From Metellina segmentata (lineage: Eukaryota; Arthropoda; Arachnida; Araneae; Tetragnathidae): 64,000 nt of DNA. Positions within the stretch are counted from its first letter, which is position 1. The number at the start of each line of letters is the position of its first letter. A program made the translations under genes and the position numbers. The DNA lies in NCBI GenBank assembly GCA_947359465.1, contig OX375872.1:125376337-125440336 (forward strand), read 5' to 3'. Below the pieces are notes generated by a model that saw nothing but the letters and a program-made list of their open reading frames with translations, was not told where the DNA came from and made no database searches. Shown here piece after piece: positions 1 to 59,660 of the stretch.

Positions 1-1335
1 AGATATCGATGAAGATATTTAAGACCGAAAACATAATGTATTATTGAGTGTTCTTTTGTTTGCTATTCAGCCCAAATTGCGCTACTATGTATCTGCAATA
101 CATCCTTAAAATGTTTATTTATTCAAATTAATTTACGCGTTTTTTTTTTAAGTCTTATTCCTCAATAGCCTATTTCATCTGTTTAGCTTATAATAGTCAG
201 GTTTTTAACGGCAGTCTTTTAATTAATCCATACAATCGATTTAAACTGTCAAGTAATATCTAATAAACACTTTAAAAAAATGCAATTATGCTAAGAGTAC
301 TTTTATTTTTTCTTCAGCATATTTTGTATCTACGCTGAAAATGTTGATTAGTTCAAAATTAATTTCTATCTAATTATTATCGCATTTGCATGTCTACTCC
401 CTTAGTGTTTATGTCTATTTGTTAAGCCCCTTATAGTCCGGTTTTTAACGCACTGTTATGATAAATCCGGACTATGAATTCAAACTGTCAAAGAAAATCT
501 TGAAAAAACTGAAAAGCACAATATCGTATGAGGGTTCTTTTATTGCTATCCAGCATATTACGAATATTTTGTATCCACTGCAATACATTCTGAAAATGTT
601 GATTGGTTCTAAATTAATTGGTTCTGCGATTTGTATATCTATTCCTTAAGTGCTTATGTATATTTGTTTGGCCCTTACAAACAGGTATTTAACGCCTTAT
701 TGCGATGTATCAGGACTATCGATTCCAACTGTCTAAAATGTAAAATAAAAACCGGAAAAAATACAATATCGTATGAGGGCTCTAGGCTATTTCCTATCTA
801 GCAAACTACGTTGTCTCTGCAATACATACTGAAAATATCGATTGGTTCTGAATTAATTGTTATCCGATTTGTGTGTCTATTCCTCAAGGACCTTTATCTA
901 TCTATTAAACCTATTGCATTCGTGTTTTTCTTGTGATTAATCCAGCCAATCAATTCAAACTGTCAAGAAAGCAAATAAAAAATGAAATATCTAATTATGA
1001 AAAAATTAGTAGCCCGTCCCCGAGGAAACTTTTCTTAAGCATATTTTGTATCTGCAATACAACCTGAAAATGTTGATTGGTTCTAAATTAATTGTTATCC
1101 GATATCCAGATCTATTCCTTAAGTGCTTATGTCTATCGGTAAAGCCCCTTACAGTCAGGTTTTTAACACATTCTAATGGACATCCACACGAACGATTCCA
1201 ACTGTCAAAGAAAATCTAAAAAACTGAAAACAAATACAATATCGCATGAGGGTTCTTTTATTGCTATCCGGCATATTGCGAATACTTTGTATCCCCTGAA
1301 ATACATTCTGAAAATGTGATTGGACCTAATTTCCC
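1..1335. repeat. Tandem satellite, about 240-bp unit, about 5.5 copies
   Basis: The landmark GTTTTTAACG and its variants recur near 201, 441, 686, 921 and 1158, a spacing of about 237-243 bases. Each unit also carries an AACTGTCAA block, a GAGGGTTCTTTTATTGC block and a CTGAAAATGTTGATTGGTTC block in the same order. Units are diverged (one is badly degraded near 920-1020). The array runs off the left edge of the window and stops near 1335, where unrelated sequence begins. No coding potential: the 63-residue frame at 458-649 is just one unit read through. Confidence 0.85.
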
Positions 1336-2139
1336 TGAGATGGAAATTTTTATAACATTTCCGTTTCCGTGCCACTCCATTCTGAATGAATGACCCGTCG
1401 CTCTCCTGGTAACTATGGTAACGCGATCCCCTTCCCAAATAATGATCCTCCATTTATCCGGTCCAACGTCTTACTTAGAGTGCCGGACAAAGATGGGTCC
1501 AGGCGCTATTTATTTGATGAAGTCTATTTATAAGGAAAGCATCCTTGTCCGTCATACCAAGATCCTGTGTGTGAGGAGAAAAGTCTTAAGTCATCGACTA
1601 TATCAATCTGTATGAGAGTGTATTTAAATGCGTAGGTTGCATTGGGAAGTATTTAAAAGGGCAAACGTGTGAAAATGTATTTCTTCAGGTACCTTTGGTT
1701 TTGCTTATTTCTTCGCGGTATATTAAGGGTATTTTAACAAAGCATCGAAATTTATTGAAAATACCTCATATTTTTTGTCATTGTTGGGCAATGTTTATTC
1801 TGACTAAAGATTTAAAACTGAAGAATAAAAAAATTATCATGACTAAGAGCAGCGATTGATTGGTTTTAGTCCTTGGACTTTCATGGGTTCTCCAAGTCGG
1901 CAAGTAAATGTGGGCCAGCTTTCTCCAAGACATTTTTGAAAAGCATTTGAATCACCTGTGATTGGGAAACTATTAGCCCAGTTCGAATAAAAGTTCCTCA
2001 GGTCTAACCACCTGCCCACACAAATCGGATTGGGATAAATCTAGATTTGAAGTAGAGGATTAGATCAGTCACATTCTGGGGGTCTTGTCTGTCTATAAGG
2101 CAACGAAACCTGCCTATTCAAATCGGATTGGGTTGATGT
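1336..2139. other. Intergenic or intronic sequence, nothing recognised
   Basis: Unique-looking AT-rich sequence. Short open frames at 1205-1453 (-) and 1415-1615 (+) overlap each other, match nothing I know and begin inside or at the edge of the satellite, so I do not call a gene. Confidence 0.5.
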
Positions 2140-2350
2140 CACCACTTTTTTATGGTCACAAGACATGCAAATTCATACACCTACTCTGTCATAAGTTGTT
2201 ATATCACCAAACAAGGCAATAAGAGGCCAAATCAGATAAATAAGTTAATTTTTCGCATAGCAGTCACTTGACTACTAGTCGACATGTGGAGATCTTTTGA
2301 AGATCTCTCAATAGTAATGCTCACTCTTACTTACATTTCACGCCTATGGT
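2140..2350. repeat. Dispersed repeat, copy 1 (partner at 35565-35795)
   Basis: Aligns by eye with 35565-35795 in the same orientation. Shared blocks include a cacacctaccctgtcat-like stretch, a CCAAACAAGG stretch, CAGTCACTTGAC and CTCTCAATAG. The family is unidentified; no termini or target-site duplication were found. Confidence 0.6.
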
Positions 2351-2807
2351 TGCTAGCGCAGTGGCCAAATCCACAGAGCTTAGCTGGTGCGGAGTAAATA
2401 TAACCCTTGTGTGAACAGTAAAAACAACTAATCTCCACAGGGGCACAAAAATAAATAACTGGGCAGATCTGTAAAGTATATTCTTTCGCATTTGCTATAC
2501 AGAATTACGCTTCACAGTATCGAGAGAAAAACAAATTTTGCGTTCTTCGAGACGTTTTGAACTTCTATGCATCGATTTGAAAAAGAGGCGTATTGATCAC
2601 GTACAGTTTCTTTCTCACGCTAAGTCAACTCGCCTGCCCGAAAAAGTAAATTTAAGCAAAAAGTTTCTCGCATGATAGATGACATTCGAAATCCTCAAGG
2701 ACCTAAATCCTGAGGATTTTTCAACCTGTCTTATGAAAAATATCGCCTTACTTGTGAAGTCACGAATACCTTTTTTGCTTGCGTCTTTTTAATATGCGGC
2801 CGCGATG
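2351..2807. other. Unassigned sequence
   Basis: No gene, repeat family or RNA recognised. No frame longer than about 60 codons. Confidence 0.4.
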
Positions 2808-2951
2808 ACCCGGTTGGAAGCCTCGTCATCTGACCGTGGTTCAAAATTACGTGGTGTTGTCCTCGAATATTTCCCTTCGGAGTTGATCCCAGACCGTCTC
2901 CAAACCCCCGTTAAGCTGCTCCATTGCGACGTTAATTAACTACCTACTAAT
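2808..2951 (+). mobile_element. SINE fragment, internally deleted
   Basis: About a dozen bases of a tRNA-like head (CCCGGTTGGAAG) are joined directly to the 3' part of the SINE body found throughout the window: TCGTCATCTGACCGTGGTTC, the GTGGTGTTGTCCTCG block, the GACCGTC block and the terminal GCGACGTTAATTAACTACC. The middle of the element is missing. No clear target-site duplication. Confidence 0.8.
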
Positions 2952-3560
2952 AGAATTCTGTGGGTTTTATTGTAGTATTTGCTTTTTGTTACATTCCGGA
3001 AGCGACGTAACTCGTCGTGTTATTCCAACGCGATTTCATAATGTCTCTTACGAGGATGATTTTCAAGCTCCATTGAATACAGTCTTGGTTTAGAGGTCTG
3101 TACACATGGAACCGTGTCTAACGCGTGTTGGATGTCATTAACCAACGCGCATTTGTAAGAGTACGGCGAATTGCTCAGAAGCGCACATGCAAACTCGCGT
3201 TAATGTATTGCACGCCGAAACAATTCCACATATCGCTCACTTCTTTCACAACGTCATGTCTCAAAAAAACGTGATTTTTCAGGAGAGTGATTTTGAAGTT
3301 TTAAAGTCGATTTAAATGTATTAAAAATAAATATTACTTCTGCTCTCAAGCTGCTAAATATTGAGCGGTGAGATGTGACGGTCTTGCTATAATGGTACAC
3401 TACTCTTTCAGGGCATTCTGAAAACAGGCATAACTAAAAATCGCCGATTTTTGAGATATGACGTTGTTGAAAGGAGTGAGCTATATATACTTTACTAACG
3501 AGCGTTTGTTAATGATATCTAACGAAATTTAATTGGTCTATTTAGTTGTGTTTCATGGCA
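2952..3560. other. Unassigned sequence
   Basis: Slightly richer in G+C than the surroundings (2980-3240), without an open frame or a recognised repeat. Confidence 0.4.
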
Positions 3561-3579
3561 CACAAGGGTCGTTTGGCTA

Positions 3580-3893
3580 AGCTGTATTTCGTCCTTCTAG
3601 ATCCGACGAATTTTGCTTATGACGAGATATCTCGTATCAAAGTCTTGCCGATTTTTTTATGACGTCGAGCTCAAGATCTAGCTATATTTCTCTTAATGAT
3701 GAGATAGCTCGTCCACATCAAGATAAGACCAATTTTGCTATTGACGAGACGGCTCGTCATCAAGATATTGGCGATGTTTTTATCACGAGCTCCAGATCTG
3801 GTTACATTTCTCTTAGTGACGAGGTATCTCGTCCATCAAGGTCTCGTCAATAATCACGATACCTTGACGAGACAACAACCAGAAGGGTTGAAC
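3580..3893. mobile_element. TTAA-type palindromic MITE, copy A, internally duplicated
   Basis: Belongs to the family best seen at 55499-55697. It contains repeated imperfect palindromes of the type GACGAGATATCTCGTC near 3620, 3700, 3740 and 3825. A unit of about 125 bases (CGAGCTCAAGATCT to GGCGATTTTT) occurs twice in tandem (about 3660-3780 and 3781-3845). The right end, CAACCAGAAGGGTTGA, matches the family terminus with a mutated TTAA. The left end is unclear. The frame 3659-3853 is a translation of this repeat. Confidence 0.65.
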
Positions 3894-4400
3894 CACATTC
3901 ACGTGATATCCCACTACAGTAACCAGACCGAGACGGCTTGCTCCTTGGTGACCCACCCTGTAGATTCATGTGCATAGCAGGGTCGATAAAAGCCTCAAAT
4001 CTCTAGATGGAATCAGACTTGGACCTTGCTTCCTCGCAAGCCTCCAACTGTGGTGGAGGGGAGGGTTGGATTAAGTGCCACCTTGCGTGAGTTGTAAATA
4101 GACAATCAGAGACCAGTAGGGAGGTCTACGTAGGAAAAATGGTGGAGAGCTGGTGAAGGAGACAGTGCTTTGTCTTGTGTGGGGAGATTCTTTCCCGATC
4201 CTGTGTGGGGGACGAGTCACTCCGGAGGGTCTCGGGGATCGTGCAGATGACGACAAGACTACCTTATTGCGACTCCCCATTCATCTTTACAAAAGGGATG
4301 AGAATACAGTGTAGTGGAGGTGCAGATATTTATTTAACTCTTCATGTGTGTCTTTCGGGGGATCGCACATGGGGGTCTTGATGCTGAATTTTTACGATTG
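3894..4400. other. Unassigned G+C-richer insert between two MITE copies
   Basis: Higher in G+C than its surroundings. Three overlapping short frames (3735-3977 +, 4071-4280 -, 4175-4381 +) compete and none resembles a known protein. The end (4330-4390) holds the CTCTTCATGTGTGTCTTTCG module that recurs at 4824-5165. Confidence 0.35.
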
Positions 4401-16114: not shown

Positions 16115-16136
16115 ATTTTTGCCTCTTCTCATCCAG
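16115..16136 (+). promoter_or_regulatory. Splice acceptor of the ANKRD50 terminal exon
   Basis: Pyrimidine tract ATTTTTGCCTCTTCTCATCC directly followed by AG. The start of homology to ANKRD50 coincides with this junction. The open frame upstream of it (from 16119) is intronic. Confidence 0.8.
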
Positions 16137-17555
16137 GTCCAATTACTTATAAACAACGCAGCCGACCTGAACTACAAAGACGCGGATGGACGGTCCACGC
16201 TTTACTTACTGGCCCTCGAGAATCGCACCGACATGGCGGAGTTCTTACTGGCACAAGGTGCGGATGTCGAGGCCCGTGACTTGGAAGGCCGCACTGCCCT
16301 CCATGTCTCCGCATGGCAAGGACATACTGACATGGTTGAGCTCCTGTTGAACCACAGAGCAGACGTGAACGCCGTTGACAACGACTACCGCACAGCCCTG
16401 CAGTCCGCTGCATGGCAGGGCCATGTCTCAGTAGTCCGGCTTCTGCTAGAAAGAAGTGCTGTTGTAGACCACGTGTGCAATCAAGGTGCCACTGCTCTCT
16501 GCATCGCAGCTCAAGAAGGTCACCTGGAGGTCGTGAAAGTGCTGCTGGAGTATGGAGCCGACCCCAGCCACGCTGACCAGTTTGGGCGGAATCCGATTCG
16601 AGTCGCTACCAAGGGTGGACACAACAGTGTGATTCGCCTTCTCGAAGAATACATGGCCCACCTCCAGGAAACCGGGAACGCCAACAATTTCTCTGGCAGC
16701 GTCAGCACCACATCCCTAACATCCGCCTCCACGGCCGAGACCAAGCCCTGCAGTGCCATACTGTGCCAGCCGAGCGTGGTGGCACCGTCGCCCGTCGAGT
16801 CCCCCGAGTCAACGGTCGACAAGAGGCGGTCGTTCATCTCGAATCAGTCGTCATCCAAATCGTCTAGCAATCTGACTAACTCCACCAATAAGTCAACCTC
16901 CAAAAACCATCCTCAACCCCAGCAACAGACCCAACTAGCGAATCAAGAGACCAATCTAAATTCCACCATCATCACCCAGAATGGGAAGGGAACTTCGCCA
17001 ATGACTTTCACCCAGCAGCTCCAGCAGTGCACGAGGAACCGAAACCGCATCAGTCGATTGCTTTCCCCATTGAGTGAGCCACACAGCCCTGTGCCAAGCC
17101 CACCCCAAAGCCCACTAAGCGACGTGCAAGGGCAAAGACTGTCTCCTGTTCAAGTGACGAGTCCCCTTGGCGGAGGTACCAATACTGGCCCCTTTGCGCC
17201 TTACTCGACTCATGTCCCCATCGTGATACCCTCTGTTGTTCATGAGTCAACCAACAACAGCAAACAATCTCACTTGCCTAGACGCACATCTGGGAGCAAT
17301 ATTCCTGTTGACTCCAGTCATCCGATTCCAAGGCCAACTGAACCACGTATACGCCGAAATGGAATTGTTACCAACCCAAACTACAAAGGTAACAATATAA
17401 TTTCTGCAGTACCCGTGAAGAGCAGTCCTGTGAAGCAGGCTACCAATATGTCAATGAACAATCACTCCGGACAGCTGAAAAATAAGCATATTTCTCAATA
17501 CGAAGAATCTCTCAAAGCTAATGCCCTGCCTTTCAAGAAAGAGACCCACTTATGA
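16137..17555 (+). CDS. ANKRD50: ANKRD50 orthologue, terminal coding exon (partial gene)
   Basis: The exon encodes the last 472 residues of an ankyrin-repeat protein. The acceptor is a pyrimidine-rich tract ending ATCCAG at 16131-16136; the first codon (GTC) is whole, so the intron is in phase 0. Five ankyrin repeats occupy about residues 10-175 ([65 protein letters not shown]). They are followed by a Ser/Thr/Gln/Pro-rich disordered tail containing [12 protein letters not shown], a late [11 protein letters not shown] block and the end FKKETHL. The repeat order and these tail motifs match vertebrate ANKRD50 as I recall it. In vertebrates ANKRD50 takes part in SNX27-retromer-dependent endosomal recycling; that role is transferred, not seen. 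Reading frame and codon use are clean, so this is a live gene. No upstream exon is visible in the window. Confidence 0.9.
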
Positions 17556-37208: not shown

Positions 37209-37915
37209 CACTGAGTGCCATAAAAAATTGCGCACCAAGAAAAAGACGTCAAAATGAAACGAAATTTTACACATTTAAGTACTATGATATAAGTAAGTAA
37301 TTAGAAAATCAAAGAAAAAGGATCATTTTTATTGCAGAAAAAAGTACAAATGAACGGAAGTTTTAGTACTCTGTTGGACCCCCTCTAGCGCGAATGCACG
37401 ATGCGATACGAGCGGGCATTGAGGCATACAAGTTCCGTATGATATCCTGAGACATCTCGTTCCACAGTTGCTGTAAACGAGCATCTAGTTCGACCAAACT
37501 CGTAGGGTGTCCAACTTGCCGTTCCAAAGGATCTCAGATATGCTCGATTGGTGACAAATCTGAGGATCGAACAGGCCAGGGAAGGGTGGTAATGTGGCGG
37601 AGGCAGTCTTGTGACATCCTTGCTGTGTGTGGCCGAGCATTGTCGTGTTGAAAAATGGCTCCTGGGAGCCCTGCCATGAGTGGCATCACATGTGGCTGAA
37701 GGATGTCATGGACGTACCGCTGGGCTGTCATTGTGCCATGGATCAATATTAGGGGTGACCGCGTATCGTAAGCAATGGCACCCCATACCATCACACCAGC
37801 TGTGGGAGCGGTGTGTCGCTGTAAAGCGAAGGCAGGATTGAGGCGTTCACTACGGGGCCTCCACACACGAACACGATTGTCCATTCCGTTCCATTCCGTT
37901 GCAGCCAAATTGCCC
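37209..37915 (-). pseudogene. Tc1 element, copy 1 (5' part of transposase missing)
   Basis: Left end CACTGAGTGCCATAAAAAATT after TA (37207-37208). The minus-strand frame 37917-37534 encodes the second half of a Tc1-type transposase: MVWGAIAYDTRSPL, FQHDNARPHTARMSQ (second catalytic Asp), then SDLSPIEHI (catalytic Glu) and an in-frame stop. The part coding for the N-terminal DNA-binding domain and first catalytic Asp is gone; compared with the copy at 53987-55380 a piece of about 50 bases is also missing near 37880. It is closely similar to that copy. Confidence 0.85.
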
Positions 37916-38559
37916 ACTTTTGCATTTTTTTAGTATTTTAGGAACAAGAACAACTATTAAAGTCTGTACTTATATCCGACAATGAAAGTGGGTGAAATTT
38001 ATTTACCAAAATTTAATAATAAAAAAATGCATGAGTGAAAAGAAAGCACATTTAATGTCTTACTTTCCTTATTTAATATTTCTTTCAATTAATTTATTCC
38101 ATTATTTTTTTATTGACCTTTGAATCAGCTTTATTTTGAGTTTTTTTAATGAACAAGATTCTTTGGATGGTCCTGGTTTAGTTTGAATAGTTTAATTCTT
38201 ACTTCGTTTAATTTTCAAGTGTAATTTCATTACATTTCAATGCTTACATTCTTACCATAATGAATAGTTTCGTTACTTCTATTTCAGATTTAAAATGGCA
38301 ATTTTAACAAAAAAGAAAGATAAACGGGCTTTAATTTCAGTCAGGGTTACTTACATAACAATTACGACTGTCCCGCATGTTTAGAAAATTTCCCTTTTTA
38401 AATATTTACATAGAAATATTTAGTTAATTTTCGGCAAATAGTGGGAAATACTATCATAGCGTACTTTCATTAGGCTTCAATGCATAGATTATTAGACTAA
38501 TTAATTATTGTTTCGTTACTTTTGTTTTATATTTAAAAGGACAATTTTATTCGGCCTTC

Positions 38560-40774: not shown

Positions 40775-42075
40775 ACTGACAAAAGTTAAGCAAGAAGAGG
40801 AAAATGTTAATTTCCAGAAGCCAATCTGAATTTCAGAGGCTGCAATTTGCTGCAGGGGTAGTTGGAAGTATGCAATTGTGTTATGTAACAGCAAATCACG
40901 GTTTCGAGTCAACAAATATGCAAAAAGGCAGTCATATAAGAAGCCAGCATTGTGAAGGGATAGAGGAGTTTCATGTAAGTGCTAATAAAAGTGTTTAGAA
41001 CTTTCGTACGATTAGTTATCAAGACAGACGTGTTTCTATGACCTCCAGATGACGAATGGCAGATTTTCAGCGCTGGCGTTCTGGCGGTCGCCTTGAAGCA
41101 GGGCGATCAATCAATGATGTTGCTCTTTTCTTTGGCGTTCATCATTCCGTCATTTCACGATTATGGAAACAATTCCGAACAAGGCAAACAATTATTCAAA
41201 GACCTGTGGCCGGTAGCCCAAGGATTACGACCCCCGCGGAATATCAATATATTGCTGTGGTAGGGAAGCGGAATCGAATAGCACCCTCCACACGTGTGAC
41301 ATCTATGGTTGAAGCGTCCATTGGTAAGACGATATCTGCCACTACTGTTCGCCGAAGGCTACACATGAATGGACTGTACGCCCGCGTACCACGAGTTTGT
41401 ATTCCTCTATCCGTCCAATCTAGAGGGACACGATTAAAGTGGTGTCGTCAACATGTGAATTGGACTGTGTCTCATTGGGCTAACGTTATGTTCACGGATG
41501 ATGAGTCTAGATTTGCCCTGGAGCCAGATGACAAACGTGTCAGGTTTTGGAGAAACAAGGCACACGCAATCCACCCCAGAACATCATCGAGCATCACGCA
41601 TTCCGAGGTGAAAGCATCATGAAGTGGGCCGGTATTTCGTTGGGATATCGCACCGACCTGCACATCTATAGATGGGGTTCTGGGACGACTGTCCGGTATC
41701 GGGATGAAGTCCTAGAACCCACTGTGAGATTTTACGCTGCAGCAGTTGGTGTTTCTTTCGTTTTAATGGATGAAAATGCGCGTCCCCATAGAGCTGGCAT
41801 CGTCGACGACTACCTGGAGAGTGAGGGGGATTGCGCGTATGGTTTGGCCGGCGTACTCGCCCGACCTTAATCCCATTAAAATGGGATGCCCTCGGCCGTG
41901 CTGTGTCTGCACGTTTCCCACCCCCAGTTACTCTCAGTTTCAAACTGCTCTACAGGAGGAATGGCGATTACTTGACTCTGGGGTGGTTGATCACCTCACA
42001 TCATGGAAAGCATGGTCCCGCGCTGTAAACTTTGTATGAGGATAGGGTGGTCACATACCCTATTACTGTCGGTTT
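40775..42075 (+). pseudogene. Tc1-type transposase gene, frameshifted
   Basis: Left terminal sequence CACTCACTGACAAAAGTTAAG follows TA near 40773. The gene starts MADFQRW at 41056. The helix-turn-helix part (RSINDVALFFGVHHSVISRL) and first catalytic Asp (VMFTDDESRF) are in frame 1. A frameshift near 41545 leads to KQGTRNPPQNIIEHHAFRG and the second Asp, FVLMDENARPHRAGIV. Another near 41830 leads to WPAYSPDLNPI, after which the catalytic Glu has been lost by a small deletion; the DALGRAVS block follows in yet another frame. At least three frameshifts make it inactive. The matching right end was not identified; a palindrome GTCACATTAATGTGAC at 42333 may belong to a different Tc1 terminus. Confidence 0.9.
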
Positions 42076-42619: not shown

Positions 42620-44360
42620 TTGATCCTCTCGTTATTCCCTGGGGCGTCGTTATCTTCTGCGACGTCGCTTGTCTCGGTCCAGGGGATCGTTATCTTCTAA
42701 GACGAAGCTTGTCTTGGTCCGGGGTGTCACTTATATCGGTCCAGATAATCGGGTTTTTTTTTGGACGTCGAAAGTCTCGGTCTGGGAGACGTTATCTTTA
42801 GGGACGAGACTTGTATTGATCCGGGTGGTCGTTATCTTCTATGACGTCGCTTGTCTTGGTCCAGGGCGTCGCTTTTCTCGGTCCGAGGTGTCGTTATCGT
42901 CTTAGACGCCGTTTGTTTTTGTCTGTTACGTCGTTATCGTATGGTTTGTTGTTTGTCTTGGTCCAGGGCGTCGTTATCATCCTAAAGCTTGTCTTGGTCC
43001 AGGGTGTCGTTATCATCCTAAAGCTTGTCTTGGTCCAGAGCGTAACTTGTTTCGATTGGTGTGTCAGTAGCCACGGTCCAGAGGTTGTTATTTTCTTGGA
43101 CGTCGCATGTCTCGGTCTTATCTTCGGTGACGAGGCTTGTCTTGGTCTGGGGGAGTTGTTATTTTCTGGGACGTCTCTTGTCTTAACTCGGATGGTCGTT
43201 ATCATCTGGGACGTCGCTTGTCTTGGTCCGAGGCATCGTTATCGTCTTAGACGCCGCTTGTCTTTGTCCGGGCGTCGTTATCGTTTGGTTCGTTGTTTGT
43301 CTTGTTCCGGGGTGTCGTTATCTTCTGAAAGCTTGTATTGGTTCAGAGCGTCACTTTTCTTGGTTGGAGTGTCAATTTACACGGTCCAGAGATTTGTTAT
43401 TTTCTGGTACACCGCTTGTCTCGGTACGGGAGGTGGTTATCGCCTGGGAAGTCAATTGTCTTGAACGTCTCTTGTCTTAACTCGAGTGGTCATCATCTTC
43501 TGGGTCGCCGCTTGTCTTGGACTGGGGCTTCGGTATCGTGTGGGTTTCCACTTGTCTTTATTCGAGGCGTCATTACCTTCTGGTACGTCGCTTGTCTCGG
43601 TCCAGGAGGGGGTTTTCGTCTGGGACGTCGTTTCTTTTGGTCCTGGGGTCTTTATCTTCTAAGATGTCGCATGTGTTGATCTGGGGGGTCGTTATTTATA
43701 GGACATTACTTGTCTTTGTCCGGGACATCGCTATCTTGTGGGAAGTCACTTGTCTCGGTTCGGGGGTCGTTATTTTCTGGGACGAAGCTAGTCTTGTCCA
43801 GGGAGTTGCTTGTCTCCTCCCGGGCGTCGTTATCTTCTGGGATGGTGCGTATATTGGTCCGGGAGTCGTTATCTTCCGGGACGTCGATTGTTTTAATCTG
43901 GGGTCGGGTATCTTGGTCCGGGAGGTCGTTAATTTTCTAGGACGTCACTTTCTTCTTTCGGAGCGGCATTATCTTCTGGATCGTCGTTTGTTTTGGTCTG
44001 AGGGTCGTTATCATCTGAAACAAAGCTTGTCTTTGTCAGGGGGTCGTACTTTTTTGGGACGTTGCTGGTCTCGGTCCGGGAGGTGGTTATCGTTTGGGAC
44101 GTCGCTTGTCTTGATCCGAGTGTCGTTATCTCTTGGGACGTCGATTGTTTTGATTCGGGGGTCGTTATATTCTGGGACAAAGCTTGTCTGAGTTAGGGAC
44201 GTCGTTCTCGTCTGGGATGTCGCTTATCTTGATCCGGGGATCGTTATCTTCTGGGAACGTCGCTTGTCTTGGTCCGGGGGTCGTTATCTTCTGGGGTATT
44301 GCCTGTCTCGGTCCAGGGCGTTGCTTGTCTCACTCCGAGGTATAGCTTGTCCTGGTCATT
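42620..44360. repeat. Minisatellite, about 40-bp unit, about 40 or more copies (1.7 kb)
   Basis: The consensus unit reads approximately GGTCGTTATCTTCTGGGACG followed by TCGCTTGTCTTGGTCCGGG. Units are diverged, and half-units (TCGCTTGTCTTGGTCCAGGG alone) are interspersed. Strongly strand-asymmetric: the + strand is rich in G and T, poor in A. Because the unit rarely makes a stop, long frames arise in several phases (42841-43464 and 43517-44191 on +); these are not genes. Confidence 0.9.
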
Positions 44361-47170: not shown

Positions 47171-50100
47171 GTGGACACTAGGGTGGTATTCAACACGAAT
47201 TTCGGAAATTGAAAACGCCTATGGTGGGAATAGTTGGGGACTAACATGCTTAGTAATAATGCAAAATATGAGCTAAATCAATTAATATCTTCAAGTGCCA
47301 AAATCACTTTGAAATTTCGAAATTTTACCAATTTCTGCACAAAAACAATAATATCGCATTTAAAAAATTTAATGCATCTTATTTAAAGCCATGGGTGGGT
47401 GAAATGAACTTCCCTGCTTCTAAAAAAAGTGTTACACCTAACATTATCCCAGAAATTAATAAATTTCCTCTTTTTTTAGAGCGCTATATCACGCACGTCT
47501 CCACTCCTCTCAATAGACACGTCATTGCGTTCCTCGCTAGTAGGGGGTGCACGGGCGCTTCCCTTTCTTCGCTTGTTTATAATGGATAAATAACTTGTAT
47601 TTCACCACATGGAGTGGAGGTGTCTGGGTTTCTTTACATACCCGCCCACTTTTTTTGTAAATATCTAGTAGGTGCATGCTCCTGCAATTGCCCTACCGAT
47701 CTAGACTATTGAGGAAAACTAAGTCTTTTGTTCAAATTTATTCGCTTTCGTTTCTTGGTGCGTATTTTACTGTTTATTTTTACTTATTTTAGATATTTTT
47801 TTATATAGAATTTTAATCTTTAAGTTAGTTTTGTTTGGGTTTGGATAGGATTTTTGTTTGTTAAGGATACACGGTTCTGTGAATTAGTCGAAATGCCTAG
47901 GACACGATCAGTAGATGTATGTCCCGTGTTTGGAATGGTTGAAATAATGAAGCCTAACATGCTTCTAACATATGCAGATGTTATGAAGTATTATCTTTAC
48001 ATACAGAAAGATTACAAAATATATGCTAGTATGTGGCTGATGTATGTTCAATTTTAATTAAAGAGCTTAAAGGATTATGGGGGAAAAGTTCGATTCCAAC
48101 TGTAACAAACCAACAAATAATATATATGCTGAAAAAATGCCATAAAGCATATAGAAATATTAAGAAACTATTAAAAAATACTGGCGAACTAGATTTCTCG
48201 AAAAAGGTTGTGTCCTTCAGGTAATCAGCAGAAGAAAAAAAAATCTATTTGATATTAGCATATGTAAATGTAAGAACTTTCTCAGTTGTACTTTCAAAAT
48301 GAAAGTACCTATTGCTGAAAGAGCTTTTTTAACAAATCAAAGGACATTTTGAAAAATGGTCATTGGAAATGTCGACATTAAAACCAGCAGAATGCTTGAA
48401 GAAAAGATTGCAGAGGAAAGAAAGAGAAGCATAGAGCCAAAACGTTCAGCTCAAAGATTGTAAAGGAAAACAATCCCAAATACTTTCGCCCTCTATTACG
48501 AGAACTACTTTGAGTTTTAATTTGATTAAGAATTATAAAGACACTACAAACACAATCATTGATAATATTCCTCCTTCAACTTCACAAACGATGACTAAAC
48601 TTCCAATGTAGCTCAGGCTTGTGACAGAACTGGTGTTTCCGATAGATCGGCCGCAATTTTAACAAATGCTACTTTGAAGGATATGGGGAAAATTTCCAAG
48701 GATGATTCCTTAAACATAGTTGATCGTAGTAAAATTGGAAGAGAAAGGACAAAGACCCGCAGCTACCTGAAAAGAAAAAATGAGGAAACTATCTCTTTAT
48801 CAGAATATGGAATATACTTTGATGAGCAAAAGAATTAAACTTTACTAATGATTAAAGAAAGAGAAAGGATTGCTAGAAAGAGGGTAACAGAAGAACATAT
48901 CGTTCTAATACTAGTACCAGGATCAAAATATATGGGCATGTCACTCCTACAGCTGGCTCTTCTCAAAATATTAAAACAAGTATTTTAATTTTTTTGGAGA
49001 AAAATATCGATCTTTCTAAGATGCAAGTGGTTGGTTGTGATGGTACAGTGGTAAATACAAGTTTGAAAAATGGAGTCATTCGACATATCGAGCTCTTTTT
49101 AGGACGTCCTGTTGATTGGTTTATTTGTTTTTTCATACAAATGAGCTACCCAGCTAACTTTAAGTCATTTGTTGCAACATTTAGAAGGGAAAACCACTGG
49201 ACCAAAAGGATACAGCGGAGAAATTGGAAAAATGTTAGAATCTTGTGAAAAATTGCCTCTAACAAACTTTGAAAAGATAGAAGTAACTTTGCCAGATATT
49301 GTCTTAGAGGATCTTAGCACTGATCAATGATACCTTTACAAAATGTGCACAGGGATATCAAATAAATATATATATTCCATTAAGTTTTTCACAAAAATAT
49401 CCAGGAAAATTGAATCATTCCAGATGGTTGACGACGACAAATAGAATTTTAAGGTTATATGTTTCAACAGAAGATCCAACCCATAACTTGAAAATATTAA
49501 CAATGTTGTGAAAGTACACTCATATGTGTGATTTAAAATTAAAAGTCAGTCATCATGTCGGTACGAGAGTCTTCATTTTTACAATATTTTCAATAAATCG
49601 AGATTTTTGCCTGAGGATTTAAAAATTGTAGTAGATATAACTTTGCAAAGAAATGCTTATTATGCCCATCCAGAAAATGTTATTTTGGCAATTTTAGCTG
49701 ATGATTGAAAACACGTCAGAGAATTAAGCCTTAGAATAATTTAAAATTAAGACAAAAAAATAAAGTTGCAAAGAATATTCGAGAGTTCAAAATTCCCAAG
49801 TTAAACTTCGAAGCAGACGATTATATAAATCTAATTGAATGGCAATCAAATTCCATTACAGATCCACCACTTACAGTATCTCTTTCTGATGATCAACTCA
49901 AGTCTATGATTCTTGACATTCCAATCAATAGTAACATATTTAACTTTCCATGCCATTCACAAGCAGTAGAACGTTGCGTTAAATTAGAAACTGAAGCATA
50001 TAGTACAGTATGTGGTACAGAGGCACGAGACGGATTTATTCGGTCAAGAATTGCTTCTAGACTTGCTTTACCCAGATTTGAAACCAAAAGCCAATATCAA

Positions 50101-50663
50101 CCACTTGCCAGAAACTTCAGTTTAATTTTTTGGGGTAAGCTAGTAACTTAAATTGAAATTTTTAGGGGGTGGGGGGGTGGGGGGGGTGGAACTCGATATG
50201 CAGCCAGTTCTGATGAGTTCTGGGTTGTTTTCATAACGCAAAAACAGCGAAGAGCTGCAAGGGGAAGCGACCGTGTAAACGCGTGGTCGCAATGATGAGT
50301 CTATTGAGAGGAGTGGAGACGCGCGTGAAAGTGCTCTAAAAAAAGAGGAAATTTTTTATTTTCCGGAATAATGTTAGGTGTAACACTTTTTTTTACACGC
50401 AGGGAAGTTCATTTCACCCACCCATGACTTTAAATAAGATGTATTAAATTTTTTTAAATGTGTTATTATTGTTTTTGTGAAGAAATTGGCAAAATTTCGA
50501 AATTTCAAAGTGATTTTGGCACCTGAAGATATTAATTGTTGAAGATATTATTGATTCAGCTCATATTTTGTATTATTAATAAGCATGTTAGTCCACAACT
50601 ATTCCCACCATAGGCGTTTTCAATTTCCTAAATTCATGTTTTTCGCTCCACCTTAGTGGACAC
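47171..50663 (+). mobile_element. 3.5-kb DNA transposon with about 430-bp terminal inverted repeats, superfamily not named
   Basis: The left arm (47171-47580) and the reverse complement of the right arm (50236-50663) align nearly throughout: GTGGACACTAGGGTGG versus GTGTCCACTAAGGTGG at the tips, then GAAATTGAAAACGCCTATGG, CACTTTGAAATTTCGAAATT, CATGGGTGGGTGAAATGAAC, GTGTTACACCTAACATTAT, TCTCCACTCCTCTCAATAGA and GGTCGCTTCCC-like. Arms are about 90 percent alike. Between them is one broken gene on +. No convincing target-site duplication is visible at the tips I chose (AGCGAGCA versus ACTTGACC). Confidence 0.8.
47893..50151 (+). pseudogene. Broken gene of the long-TIR element (unclassified transposase-like protein)
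   Basis: It starts MPRTRSVDVCPVFG at 47893. In-order pieces in shifting frames are LTYADVMKYYLYIQKDYK; ELKGLWGKSSIPTVTNQQ (48060); KKNLFDISICKCKNF (48234) with VPIAERAFLTNQR and MVIGNVD; QVVGCDGTVVNTSLKNGVIR (49000) then ELFLGRPVDWF; TKRIQRRNWKN, and in another frame GPKGYSGEIGKMLESCE; LPDIVLEDLSTDQ; LQRNAYYAHPENVILAILAD; FEADDYINLIEWQS (49805); and FNFPCHSQAVERCVKLETEA, then RDGFIRSRI (50030), ending at 50151. I recall many uncharacterised arthropod and Hydra proteins with this series of motifs but no agreed family name. Lying exactly between inverted repeats, it is presumably the transposase. At least six frameshifts or stops. Confidence 0.65.
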
Positions 50664-51009: not shown

Positions 51010-51141
51010 GAGATTGCCTCGTCATCTAAACGTGGTTCAAAATTACGTGGTGCTGTTCTCTGATATTTCCCTTAGGGAATTGATCCCGCACCATCGTCAA
51101 TAGACCTTTGTGTTGCTCTAGTACAACGTTAAATAAAATTA
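51010..51141 (+). mobile_element. SINE 3' fragment
   Basis: CCTCGTCATCTAAACGTGG through GTGGTGCTGTTCTCTG and TTGCTCTAGTACAACGTTAA. Confidence 0.75.
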
Positions 51142-51351
51142 CAATTAGCAAGTAGGAAAAACAAATTGCGCCCTGCACAGAACTGGCGACAGTTTAAAGC
51201 AGGTGTTTGCAACAGAAGCTGGACACTACAAGGCTTTTTTCGAGGTAGGTATTTTATTAACGTCGCACTGGAGCAACACAGCGGGCTATTGACGACGGTC
51301 CGGGATCAATCCCAATGAGGACAACACCGCGTAATTTTGAACCATGGTCAG

Positions 51352-51825
51352 GTAATTGGTAATTTTAGTTAACGTCGTACTAGAGCAACACTAACAGGAA
51401 TCGAACCTGCACCGCCAACAACTCGAACTCGTAACACTCCGGTTGATAACCCGCTACCCTACCAACCGGGCTACTTGTATCTTTCCCATCAGAATGGTAA
51501 TGGTAATTTTAGTTAACGTCGTACTAGAGCAACACATCGGGCTATTGACGACGGTCCGGGATCAGTCCCTTAAGGGAAAGATCCGAGGACAACACTTCGT
51601 AATTTTGAACCACGGTCAGATGACGAAACAACATCTGAGCTGGCACCCCACTCTCCAAACTTCCACGCCAACCCAACGTGAGGACTTTCGGCCACGACAG
51701 ATTTAAGGTGCACCAGCCGCCTCTACACCATACGTTTACAAACATCCATGCCCGGACCCGGATTCGAACCAGGAACCTTCCGATCTAGAGGCTAACATCT
51801 TAACCACTATACCGGTTGGTCGGCG
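51352..51825 (-). mobile_element. Composite (dimer-like) SINE insertion
   Basis: On the minus strand there is a full head-type-I SINE (51825 to about 51493), a linker of about 20 bases, then a short SINE made of a type-II head (GCCCGGTTGGTAGGGTAGCG, with B-box GGTTCGATTCC) joined straight to the SINE 3' end (GTGTTGCTCTAGTACGACG). The whole is bounded by GAACCATGGTCAG (51339-51351) and GAACCACGGTCAG (51826-51838). No separate duplication flanks the inner SINE, so the pair may have been inserted as one transcript. Confidence 0.65.
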
Positions 51826-53986: not shown

Positions 53987-55380
53987 CACTCATTGCCATA
54001 AAAATTTGTGCACCAAGAAAAAGTCAAAATGAAACGAAATTTTACACACGTAAGTACTACTTTGATATACGTAAGTGATTAGGAAATCAAAGAAAAAGGA
54101 TCTTTTATTGCAGAAAAAAAGAACAAATGAACGAAAGTTTTAGTACTCTGATGGACCCCCTCTAGCGCGAATGCACGATGCGATACGAGCGGGCATTGAG
54201 GCATACAAGTTCCATATGATGTCCTGAGACATCTCGTTCCACAGTTGCTGTTAACGCGCCTCTAGTTCGACCAAACTCGTAGGGTGTCCAACTTGCCGTC
54301 CCAAATAAGCTCGATTGGTGAAAAATCTGGTTATCGAGCAGGCCAGGGAAGGGTGGTAATGTGGCAGAGGCAGTCTTGTGACATTCTTGCTGTGTGTGGT
54401 CGAGCATTGTCTTGTTGAAAAATGGCTCCTGGGAGCCCAGCCATGAGTGGCATCACATGTGGCTGAAGGATGTCATGGACGTACTGCTGGGCTGTCATTG
54501 TGCCATGGATCAATATTAGGGGTGACCGTGTATCGTAAGCAATGGCACCCCATACCATCAAACCAGCTGTGGGAGCGGTGTGTCGCTATAAAGCGAAGGC
54601 AGGATTGAGGCGTTCACCACGGGGCCTCCACACACGAACACAATTGTCATCGCTGCTCAAATTGAATCTAGATTCGTAGCTGAAGACGACCTGGTTCCAT
54701 TCCGTTGCAGTCCAATCCCGTCGTTCGCGACACCACTCCAAACGGAGGCGTCGGTGTCATTGGCAGCACACGTAATGGGGCGCCGCGATACCATATGACC
54801 TTCAGCTAGGCGCCTTGCGATGGTTCGGGAAGACACAGGGGCCCGTACTGGAGGTGCTGCCTGTGTATGGATAGCGGCCAATGAGGCAGTTTTCTCTACG
54901 CGTGCGTATCGTATGATGTGACGGTCTTCTCGATGACTGGTCTGTCGAGGGCGTTCTGAGCCTGGTCGCCGTGTAAATGACGTCTCTTCTGTCCACTGGT
55001 CCCACCACCTCCTCACAGTAAAATCAGAACGGCCTACTTGAAGAGCTACTCGCCGAGCTGACTACCCAGATTCCATCATCCCGATGATTCTTCCCCTCTC
55101 GAACTCTGACAGCTGCTCATATTGTCTTCGATGGCGGCGTAACGGCATGTCTACCTCAGCGTTTCCTTTGCAAAAGATTAAGTACACTCAAACAAGCTCT
55201 GCTTACCTGTTTTATACTCCAAGGAGAACGAAGTTCAACGCCCTCGAGTGGCATTACGCAAAGCGCAATCACGATGCATTTCTAATCATTTGCATATCTG
55301 GCCGACATGTACCTTCATGCCAAGTTGCGTTACGATCCCACAATTATTTCGTGGTGCGCAAATTTTTATGGCAATGAGTG
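53987..55380 (-). mobile_element. Tc1 element, copy 2, complete length (1.39 kb)
   Basis: Ends CACTCATTGCCATAAAAATTTG and, inverted, CACTCATTGCCATAAAAATTTG at the right (55359-55380, followed by TA). Close relative of 37209-37915. Confidence 0.9.
54140..55148 (-). pseudogene. Tc1-type transposase of copy 2, disrupted
   Basis: Starts at 55148 with MPLRRHRRQYEQLSEFERG and hits a stop about 28 codons in, but continues in frame (VALQVGRSDFTVRRWWDQW, the helix-turn-helix part). A frameshift near 54655 follows; then MMVWGAIAYDTRSPL, FQQDNARPHTARMSQD (second catalytic Asp) and WPAR followed by a stop and PDFSPIE, where a short deletion follows. The frame resumes to the end at 54140. Tc1 family DD34E transposase; cut-and-paste mobility is inferred from the family. 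Inactive now. Confidence 0.9.
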
Positions 55381-57568: not shown

Positions 57569-57904
57569 GACTTGAAATTGGATAGTTGGGAATTTTTAAT
57601 TAACGTTGTACTAGAGCAGTGGTTCCCAAAGTGGGTTCCGCGGAACCCTGGGGTTCCACGAAAAAATTTAGGGGTTCCGCGTGACAAATTTTATTTCATT
57701 AAAAAAATAAGAATGGCGTCTAATATATTCACATTTTCCTTGGAAAGTATACAATCGACCAACGCATTAAATTTAAAATTTTAAATAAGGCGACTGAAAA
57801 AAAATCACCCAACAAATAAAGGCAAAGATATTTCTTTTTTTAAGAAGAAAACTTGAAAACCATAATAAAAGCAAGAGTTTTATGATAAAAAATTTCAAAA
57901 CAAT

Positions 57905-59660
57905 AATCAAAAGATAACGGAAGCGTCGTATAAAGTATCTTGCCGTATTGCTCTTGCAGGCGAGGCACATGTTATTGGTGAATCACTTATTAAACCTTGC
58001 GTTCAAGACATCGTTTCGTGTGTATTCGGCGAAGGGTATAGCAAACAAATTGAAAGTTTGTCTCTTTCTAACAATACTGTAAAAAGGCGTATTAACGATA
58101 TTGTCGGTGACATTTAAATAGAACTTATTTCATGGTTACAGGCGTGTGACGCTTATGTATTTACAACTAGATGAGCTCACAGACGTTGCTAGATTAGCAA
58201 TTTTGCTTGTTTTCATTCGGAATTATTTTAATAAAAAAATTGAAGAAGATTTGCTTTTATATGATAGTGTGAACATTAACACCACGGGGGAAAATATATT
58301 TAACTGCATTGATAATTTTATGACAACGCATGAAATTAACTGGGAAAAATGTATTGAAGTATGCAGCGATGCAGCAAAAGCAATGACAGGAAAAGTGGGT
58401 GGTGCTGTAGCACGGATTAAAAATGTTGCAAAAAACTGTAACAGTACTCATTGCATTCTTCACAGATATGCATTAGTAACAAAAAGGATTTCGGTGACAT
58501 TTAAATCTGTTCTAGACGAAGCAGTGAAGATTATTAATTTTATCAAAAGTAAACCATTGCAATCACGTATTTTCAAAGACATTTGCGAAGATATGGGTAG
58601 TCTTCACATCACTTTTCTTCTTCATACGGATGTTAGATGGTTATCGCGAGGTAGAATGCTTGTGCGAATATTTGAATTGCGCCGACCAACCGGTATAGTG
58701 GTTAAGGTGTTAGCCTCTAGATCGGAAGGTCCCCGGTTCGAATCCGGGTTCGGGCATGGATGTTTGTAAGCGTATACCAGCTCAGGTGTTGCTTCGTCAT
58801 CTGAACATAGTTCAAAATTACGAAGTATAAGTTGTTAGGGGCAATGATGGTCCTCCCACTGGGTGCTCCTTCACAAGTGGCCATCACTTCCGGCTTTGTA
58901 GTGGCCAATGATTTAGGTCAAATGTGACCGCCATTAGAAAAAAAAAATTTGAATTGCGAAAGGAACTGATGGCGAATTACATTGGTCATAAATTTGAATT
59001 ATCAGACAGGATTAAATAATATCACTTGCTATCTACACTTGCATACCTTGCTGACATATTTGGAAAATTGAACGTATTATGTTTGGTTCTGCAAGGAAAA
59101 CAAGTCAACATATTCCAAACAAAAGATAAATTGGTTGCCTTTTCAAGGAAAATACAATATTGGATTTCAGCTGCGGAGCAAAACAACTTCGAGTGTTTCC
59201 AGACGCTTAGTGATTTTCTCTAAGAATCTGAAGTGAATTTAGATATGGAAATCCACGATGGTATAAAAACATATCTCTCCAGTTTACAGCAATCACTCAG
59301 TGATTACTTTCCAAACCTAGAGAATCAAGATAATTACTGGGTACAAAATCCTTTCAAAATAAAAGAAAAACCAAAAGGATTTCATTCCATGGATTATGAA
59401 AAATTGATTGAATTGAGTTCGGATACACAATTAGAAACCAAATTTAGAACAGTTTCGTTAACAATATTCTGGTCAGATGTATTCGATGAATATCCAAATT
59501 TATCAAAACATGGTATTCGAATTCTATTGCCGTTTACTACGTTTTTATTTGTGTGAAGCTGGGTTTTAAAAATATGTTGCGACAAAAACCAAATATTGTA
59601 ACAAACTTGATGCTGCACCAGATATGCGAGTTCAGTTATCAAACACATAACGCCCAATTT
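57905..59660 (+). pseudogene. hAT transposase (ZBED5/FAM200-like group), disrupted
   Basis: From about 57905 one reads ASYKVSCRIALAGEAHVIGE, LIKPCVQDIVSCVFGEGY and LSNNTVKRRINDIVGDI, then a stop (58115). After a frameshift near 58145 come LQLDELTDVARLAILLVFIR (catalytic-core start) and WEKCIEVCSDAAKAMTGKVGG, then CILHRYALVTKR and HTDVRWLSRGRMLVRIFELR (58680). A SINE interrupts here; the protein resumes at 58950 with FELRKELMANYIGHKFELSD, then LADIFGKLNVLCLVLQGKQ, stops at 59221, and ends near LPFTTFLFV with further shifts into the dimerisation region. These motifs are those of the ZBED5/FAM200 hAT group. Clearly dead: several stops and shifts besides the SINE. Confidence 0.9.
58682..58946 (+). 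mobile_element. SINE, head type I with a different 3' tail, inside the hAT gene
   Basis: Head CCGACCAACCGGTATAGTGG, B box GGTTCGAATCC, a shortened body ending near 58825, then a 3' region of about 110 bases not seen in the other copies (GTTGTTAGGGGCAATGATGG ... GTGACCGCCATTAG) and a run of A. Perfect 12-bp target-site duplication ATTTGAATTGCG at 58670-58681 and 58947-58958. Confidence 0.95.

Follow-up and report, generated by a model that had tools for sequence, protein, structure and literature searches.

The stretch of DNA analysed here (the window; 64,000 bp of the spider Metellina segmentata, contig OX375872.1, positions 125,376,337 to 125,440,336) carries at 47179-50655 a decayed transposon copy of 3,477 bp, with arms in inverted orientation and a single gene on the + strand (Table 1). 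A perfect 8-bp target-site duplication, GTGGACAC, lies on either side, and the interval 47171-50663 originally delimited corresponds to the element plus both duplications, which the preliminary description had passed over. In a gapped alignment the segments 47192-47529 and 50288-50640 were 87.9% identical over 355 columns, and the likeness of the arms extended up to the outermost bases of the element, so that each arm measures ca. 350–370 bp. The inverted-repeat search returned ungapped blocks of 106, 91, 70, 73 and 60 nt with 83–93% complementarity, collinear in both arms. The preliminary description of a DNA transposon with long inverted arms is borne out by this alignment and by the dispersed copies in the genome; the inverted orientation it gave was correct, and the length of 410–430 bp was too great. 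Repeats inside the terminal inverted repeats (TIRs), as possible transposase sites, were not notable (6 near-repeat pairs; shuffled sequences had 2.0 on average and at most 9). As had also been described, the arms enclose one decayed gene, whose coding remnant starts with MPRTRSV, ends with KSQYQPL at about 50106 and is scattered over all three + frames. With its gene broken, the window copy should no longer make the transposase.

Table 1. Features of the transposon copy (positions in the window; residue numbers follow relative P0027).
Feature	Position	Strand	Remark
Left target-site duplication GTGGACAC	47171..47178		sequence
Entire decayed element of hAT type (probably hATm), 3,477 bp	47179..50655	+	
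Left long TIR, starts TAGGGTGG	47179..47529	+	88% identity to right arm, 355 columns
Broken transposase gene, three frames	47893..50106	+	
CKCKN, first half of the N-terminal C-x-C-x5-C-x-C cluster	48263..48277	+	
YFDEQK, decayed form of YFDGRKD, with the probable first catalytic Asp (D306)	48815..48832	+	putative role
GCDGT, probable second catalytic Asp (D379)	49033..49047	+	putative role
WFIC.../HTNELP, CxxH motif divided by frame change	49117..49151	+	meaning of CxxH as given in PMC4763223
HSRWL, invariant Arg-Trp of the family (R503, W504), hAT-like RW	49416..49430	+	proposed equivalence to hAT RW
AVERC, probable catalytic Glu (E687)	49963..49977	+	putative assignment
Right long TIR, starts TAAGGTGG on the minus strand	50288..50655	-	
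Right target-site duplication GTGGACAC	50656..50663		sequence

We searched the genome (1.67 Gb, 173 contigs; match counts are lower bounds) for other copies. The left TIR gave at least 40 matches with 91–100% identity (40 scored of 1,581 candidates) and the C-terminal protein piece at least 150 (150 scored of 2,733 candidates); as every scored candidate matched in both searches, the element is not a product of chance. Fourteen genomic stretches were taken, including the window's own, and 11 elements were compared. Long arms were present in all 11, those of the 10 other copies aligning over 340–472 columns at 87–96% identity. Seven of the 11 (L039-L043, L048 and L051) were 96–98% identical among themselves, and L039 has kept an open frame of 705 codons. 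The window copy was only 88.7–91.9% identical to the other 10, which indicates an older copy or a member of another subfamily. One of the copies, L049 (element at 822-4399), has inside it a 359-codon open frame (1386-2462, - strand) that by eye resembles a reverse transcriptase of the non-long-terminal-repeat kind.

An exact 8-bp duplication was found in 8 of the 11 elements in which both ends could be traced, the others being L039, L042 (left end lost) and L045. The further elements L034, L062 and L065 all have one, giving 11 of 14 distinct elements, or 11 of 15 if L066, left out for having its ends placed by eye, is counted as a miss. The flanks of 56 distinct ends (some elements counted twice, once per end; five end matches not starting at base 1 dropped) gave the consensus [A/C]TGTACA[G/T], in which the second base was T in 48 flanks and the seventh was A in 52, the two occurring together in 45; farther out there was no comparable base preference. 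This pattern agrees with the target 5'-nTnnnnAn-3' given for Hermes (PMC10368747). The ends themselves start with TAGGGTG in 52 of the 56 cases, most commonly as TAGGGTGGAGCGAAAAACAC, and the right end of the window element (TAAGGTG) is one change away from it.

The same anatomy was found in a second transposase lineage. The Amyelois relative P0087, used as query (61 scored of 6,331 candidates), led to the element L062 (C7:38855667-38857943), which has an 813-codon open frame (1357-3795, + strand) whose product shares 42% identity with the L039 protein. The arms of L062 (336 bp, 93% identical to each other) resemble those of the first family in their interiors only over short stretches. Both ends read TAGGGTGGGCCGAAAAACAC, of the TAGGGTG type, and are bordered by the exact duplication ATGATGAG. 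Two lineages thus combine long arms with TAGGGTG ends and 8-bp duplications, both of them in one genome and the second represented by a single element.

The long protein query retrieved at least 685 relatives at E ≤ 1e-3 (7,991 candidates scored), of which 120 were listed. The named relatives among the matches listed were insects, among them Aquatica leii, Callosobruchus, Diabrotica balteata, Amyelois transitella and Daktulosphaira vitifoliae, their records titled “uncharacterized” or “hypothetical”; a shorter query also listed one Capsicum record. No relatives were found in plasmids, and none were confirmed in viral contigs or prokaryote genome contigs. In an alignment of 116 of the 120 listed relatives (A1; P0077, P0120, P0131 and P0141 omitted), D306, D379, R503, W504, E588 and D597 were invariant. 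Position 687 was Glu in all but one of the 116, which had Asn. C408 and H411, which form a CxxH after the second Asp, were each present in 115, and so were the cysteines of an N-terminal C-x-C-x5-C-x-C cluster (C125, C127, C133 and C135; a gap in the remaining relative). This conserved orphan protein is most likely the transposase of the element, as had been proposed.

An AlphaFold2 model of the transposase (mean predicted local distance difference test score 90.2) has a mainly helical N-terminus, followed by strands at 302-316, 323-337, 341-346, 375-378 and 404-407 and a helix at 684-699. As modelled, this order corresponds to an RNase H fold into which a long helical segment is inserted. D306 falls on the first strand, D379 just after the fourth and E687 on the helix near the C-terminal end, and these three residues probably make up the catalytic triad, with E588, on an insertion helix (587-595), as alternative third acid. 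The earlier suggestion that C-D-G-T may hold a catalytic acid is probably right, D379 being that of the motif. The comparison with Asp-Asp-Glu (DDE) folds that had been proposed gave Hermes as the best match to the predicted fold, the structural alignment extending to Hermes residue 609. The structural Z score to Hermes was 17.4, versus 24.7 for a Buster.

By sequence the family is far less easily placed. No Pfam model covers it, either in 11 long proteins scanned singly or in 58 of the A1 relatives (A2). In none of the 11 was there a Pfam match to the C-terminal dimerisation domain PF05699, which divergence can hide, to an N-terminal BED finger, to THAP or to the MULE (Mutator-like element) transposase domain. 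Matches were seen to PF16095 COR-A in five of the 58 (best E 5.5e-4) and to HMG-box in P0052 (E 0.0039, below the cut-off). A single match to PF13843 (DDE) in one of the 58 (P0118, residues 681-747, E 3.2e-4, below the curated cut-off) was discarded, as it seems to come from a fused gene model. The Protein Data Bank gave no match by sequence, and with the A1 profile two that were taken as chance (E 0.65 and 5.1) and none to Hermes. The window itself contains the remnant of another hAT, of ZBED5/AeBuster kind (57869-59556, + strand; CSDAAKAM, HCILHR, TDVRWLSRG), which was the source of our hAT comparison. A profile-profile comparison with Buster-type hATs (A3, 40 of 120 listed hATs) gave a local match of 73 columns with E 8e-6, which aligns D379 with the invariant second Asp of the 40 hATs and the CxxH with theirs; hhalign gave no signal against Ac-type hATs. 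The preliminary description had looked to profile searches for a clear assignment to a named superfamily: Pfam provides none, but this short match agrees with the fold and the target site on hAT.

The termini, the 8-bp duplications of nTnnnnAn type, the Hermes-like fold and the CxxH together place the element with hAT, where the preliminary description could name no superfamily. It had also reported the hAT RW as lacking; a probable equivalent is present, as HSRWL. A fourth hAT family, hATm, which is said to diverge from Ac, Buster and Tip, has been proposed; it has more than 74 Repbase entries, ends TAGGGTG/CACCCTA and 8- or 9-bp duplications, and the TIRs of its members in Rhodnius prolixus and Cotesia vestalis (hATm-6_RP and hATm-6_CV) are 417 and 575 bp long (PMC6004678). 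Ends, duplication and arm length (336–472 bp here) all fit that published description. We therefore regard the window element, with considerable confidence, as the decayed remains of a hAT transposon of the cut-and-paste type that most likely belongs to the hATm branch. A possible difference is that PF05699 is reported in hATm-6 (PMC6004678) and was not matched by Pfam in the 11 proteins scanned here. The short TIRs usual in hATs (10–25 bp; PMC3942097), which are not a defining trait, are not found here, and it is the unusually long inverted ends that masked the hAT membership of the element. We found no description of it among the literature matches listed for its terminal sequences, nor among the best 15 of 196 matches for CTGTACAG and hAT.

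Other placements have to be weighed against this one. Hermes shares the RNase H fold with helical insertion, the DDE triad, the CxxH and the nTnnnnAn target, but has 17-bp TIRs and an N-terminal BED (PMC10368747, PMC4763223), a finger that is ascribed to all hATs (PMC10368747). The AeBuster/ZBED5-type hATs (P0259 and A3) share the second Asp and CxxH but only locally, and their BED-like C75, C78, H95 and H100 are invariant or nearly so. The family studied here, with no BED or PF05699 match and the C-x-C-x5-C-x-C cluster instead, with a lower Z score to Hermes than a Buster and with neither a sequence match to Hermes nor a signal with Ac-type hATs, might then be a separate superfamily, as the preliminary description had it, sister to hAT and working in the hAT way, that has a hAT-like core, insertion and 8-bp target but carries long TIRs and binds DNA through an N-terminal region of its own. 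We consider this unlikely, given that in its termini (TAGGGTG), the size of its duplications and the length of its arms the family matches hATm, which its authors put in hAT (PMC6004678), and that the profile match is to Buster-type hATs. A milder version, doubtful but somewhat easier to entertain, is that the family forms a lineage beside classical hAT, with the same cut-and-hairpin core and 8-bp target, in which the BED would have been replaced by a helical N-terminus whose cysteine cluster reads the long inverted repeats.

The long TIRs also bring to mind elements outside hAT. The THAP domain is typical of the P superfamily, and none was matched in the 11 proteins. Within that superfamily Galileo is a precedent for long TIRs where those of its relatives are short (PMC3688188), but it has, besides THAP, tandem repeats within its TIR, of which nothing notable was seen here. 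The P element was second in the Foldseek ranking (E 1.3e-4), with Hermes scoring better; VIA-align listed 50 entries without the P chain, a listing that decides little, and the termini and target are unlike the usual P pattern. A Galileo-like element using the P mechanism is very improbable. Barely credible is a MULE, the classic long-TIR group, which the long arms, the CxxH and the third Foldseek rank of ISCth4 (of the IS256 family, akin to MULEs) could suggest, and whose transposase domain was not matched in the 11 proteins.

If the hAT placement is right, a mechanism can be outlined from Hermes and Kat1. The transposase would bind both TIRs, and D306, D379 and E687 would, with metal ions, nick at the element end. 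A hairpin would then be formed on the flanking DNA, aided by the CxxH and the RW tryptophan, and the freed ends would be joined 8 bp apart at a target like [A/C]TGTACA[G/T].

The window holds other features around the element. Three MITE-like (miniature inverted-repeat transposable element) inverted-repeat pairs lie just outside it, within 370 bp at 51026-51394 (arms of 35–62 nt, 82–92% complementary). Open pieces at 37534-37929 (-), 41053-41622 (+) and 54657-55061 (-) resemble Tc1/mariner transposases in their motifs. A tandem array with a 39–40-bp unit and ca. 7 copies is found at 44002-44295, and may start earlier given that the search began at 44000. At 16116-17555 (+) a 479-codon open frame, with ankyrin-like repeats at its start by eye, is likely to be a host-gene exon.

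Long TIRs, then, do not exclude hAT. Of remaining interest is that Pfam does not see so large a transposase family, and that its N-terminus lacks a BED match, which leaves the DNA binding of that terminus open to experiment. An orphan protein family gains a likely identity as a hAT-type transposase, and annotators could mask it as a transposon.
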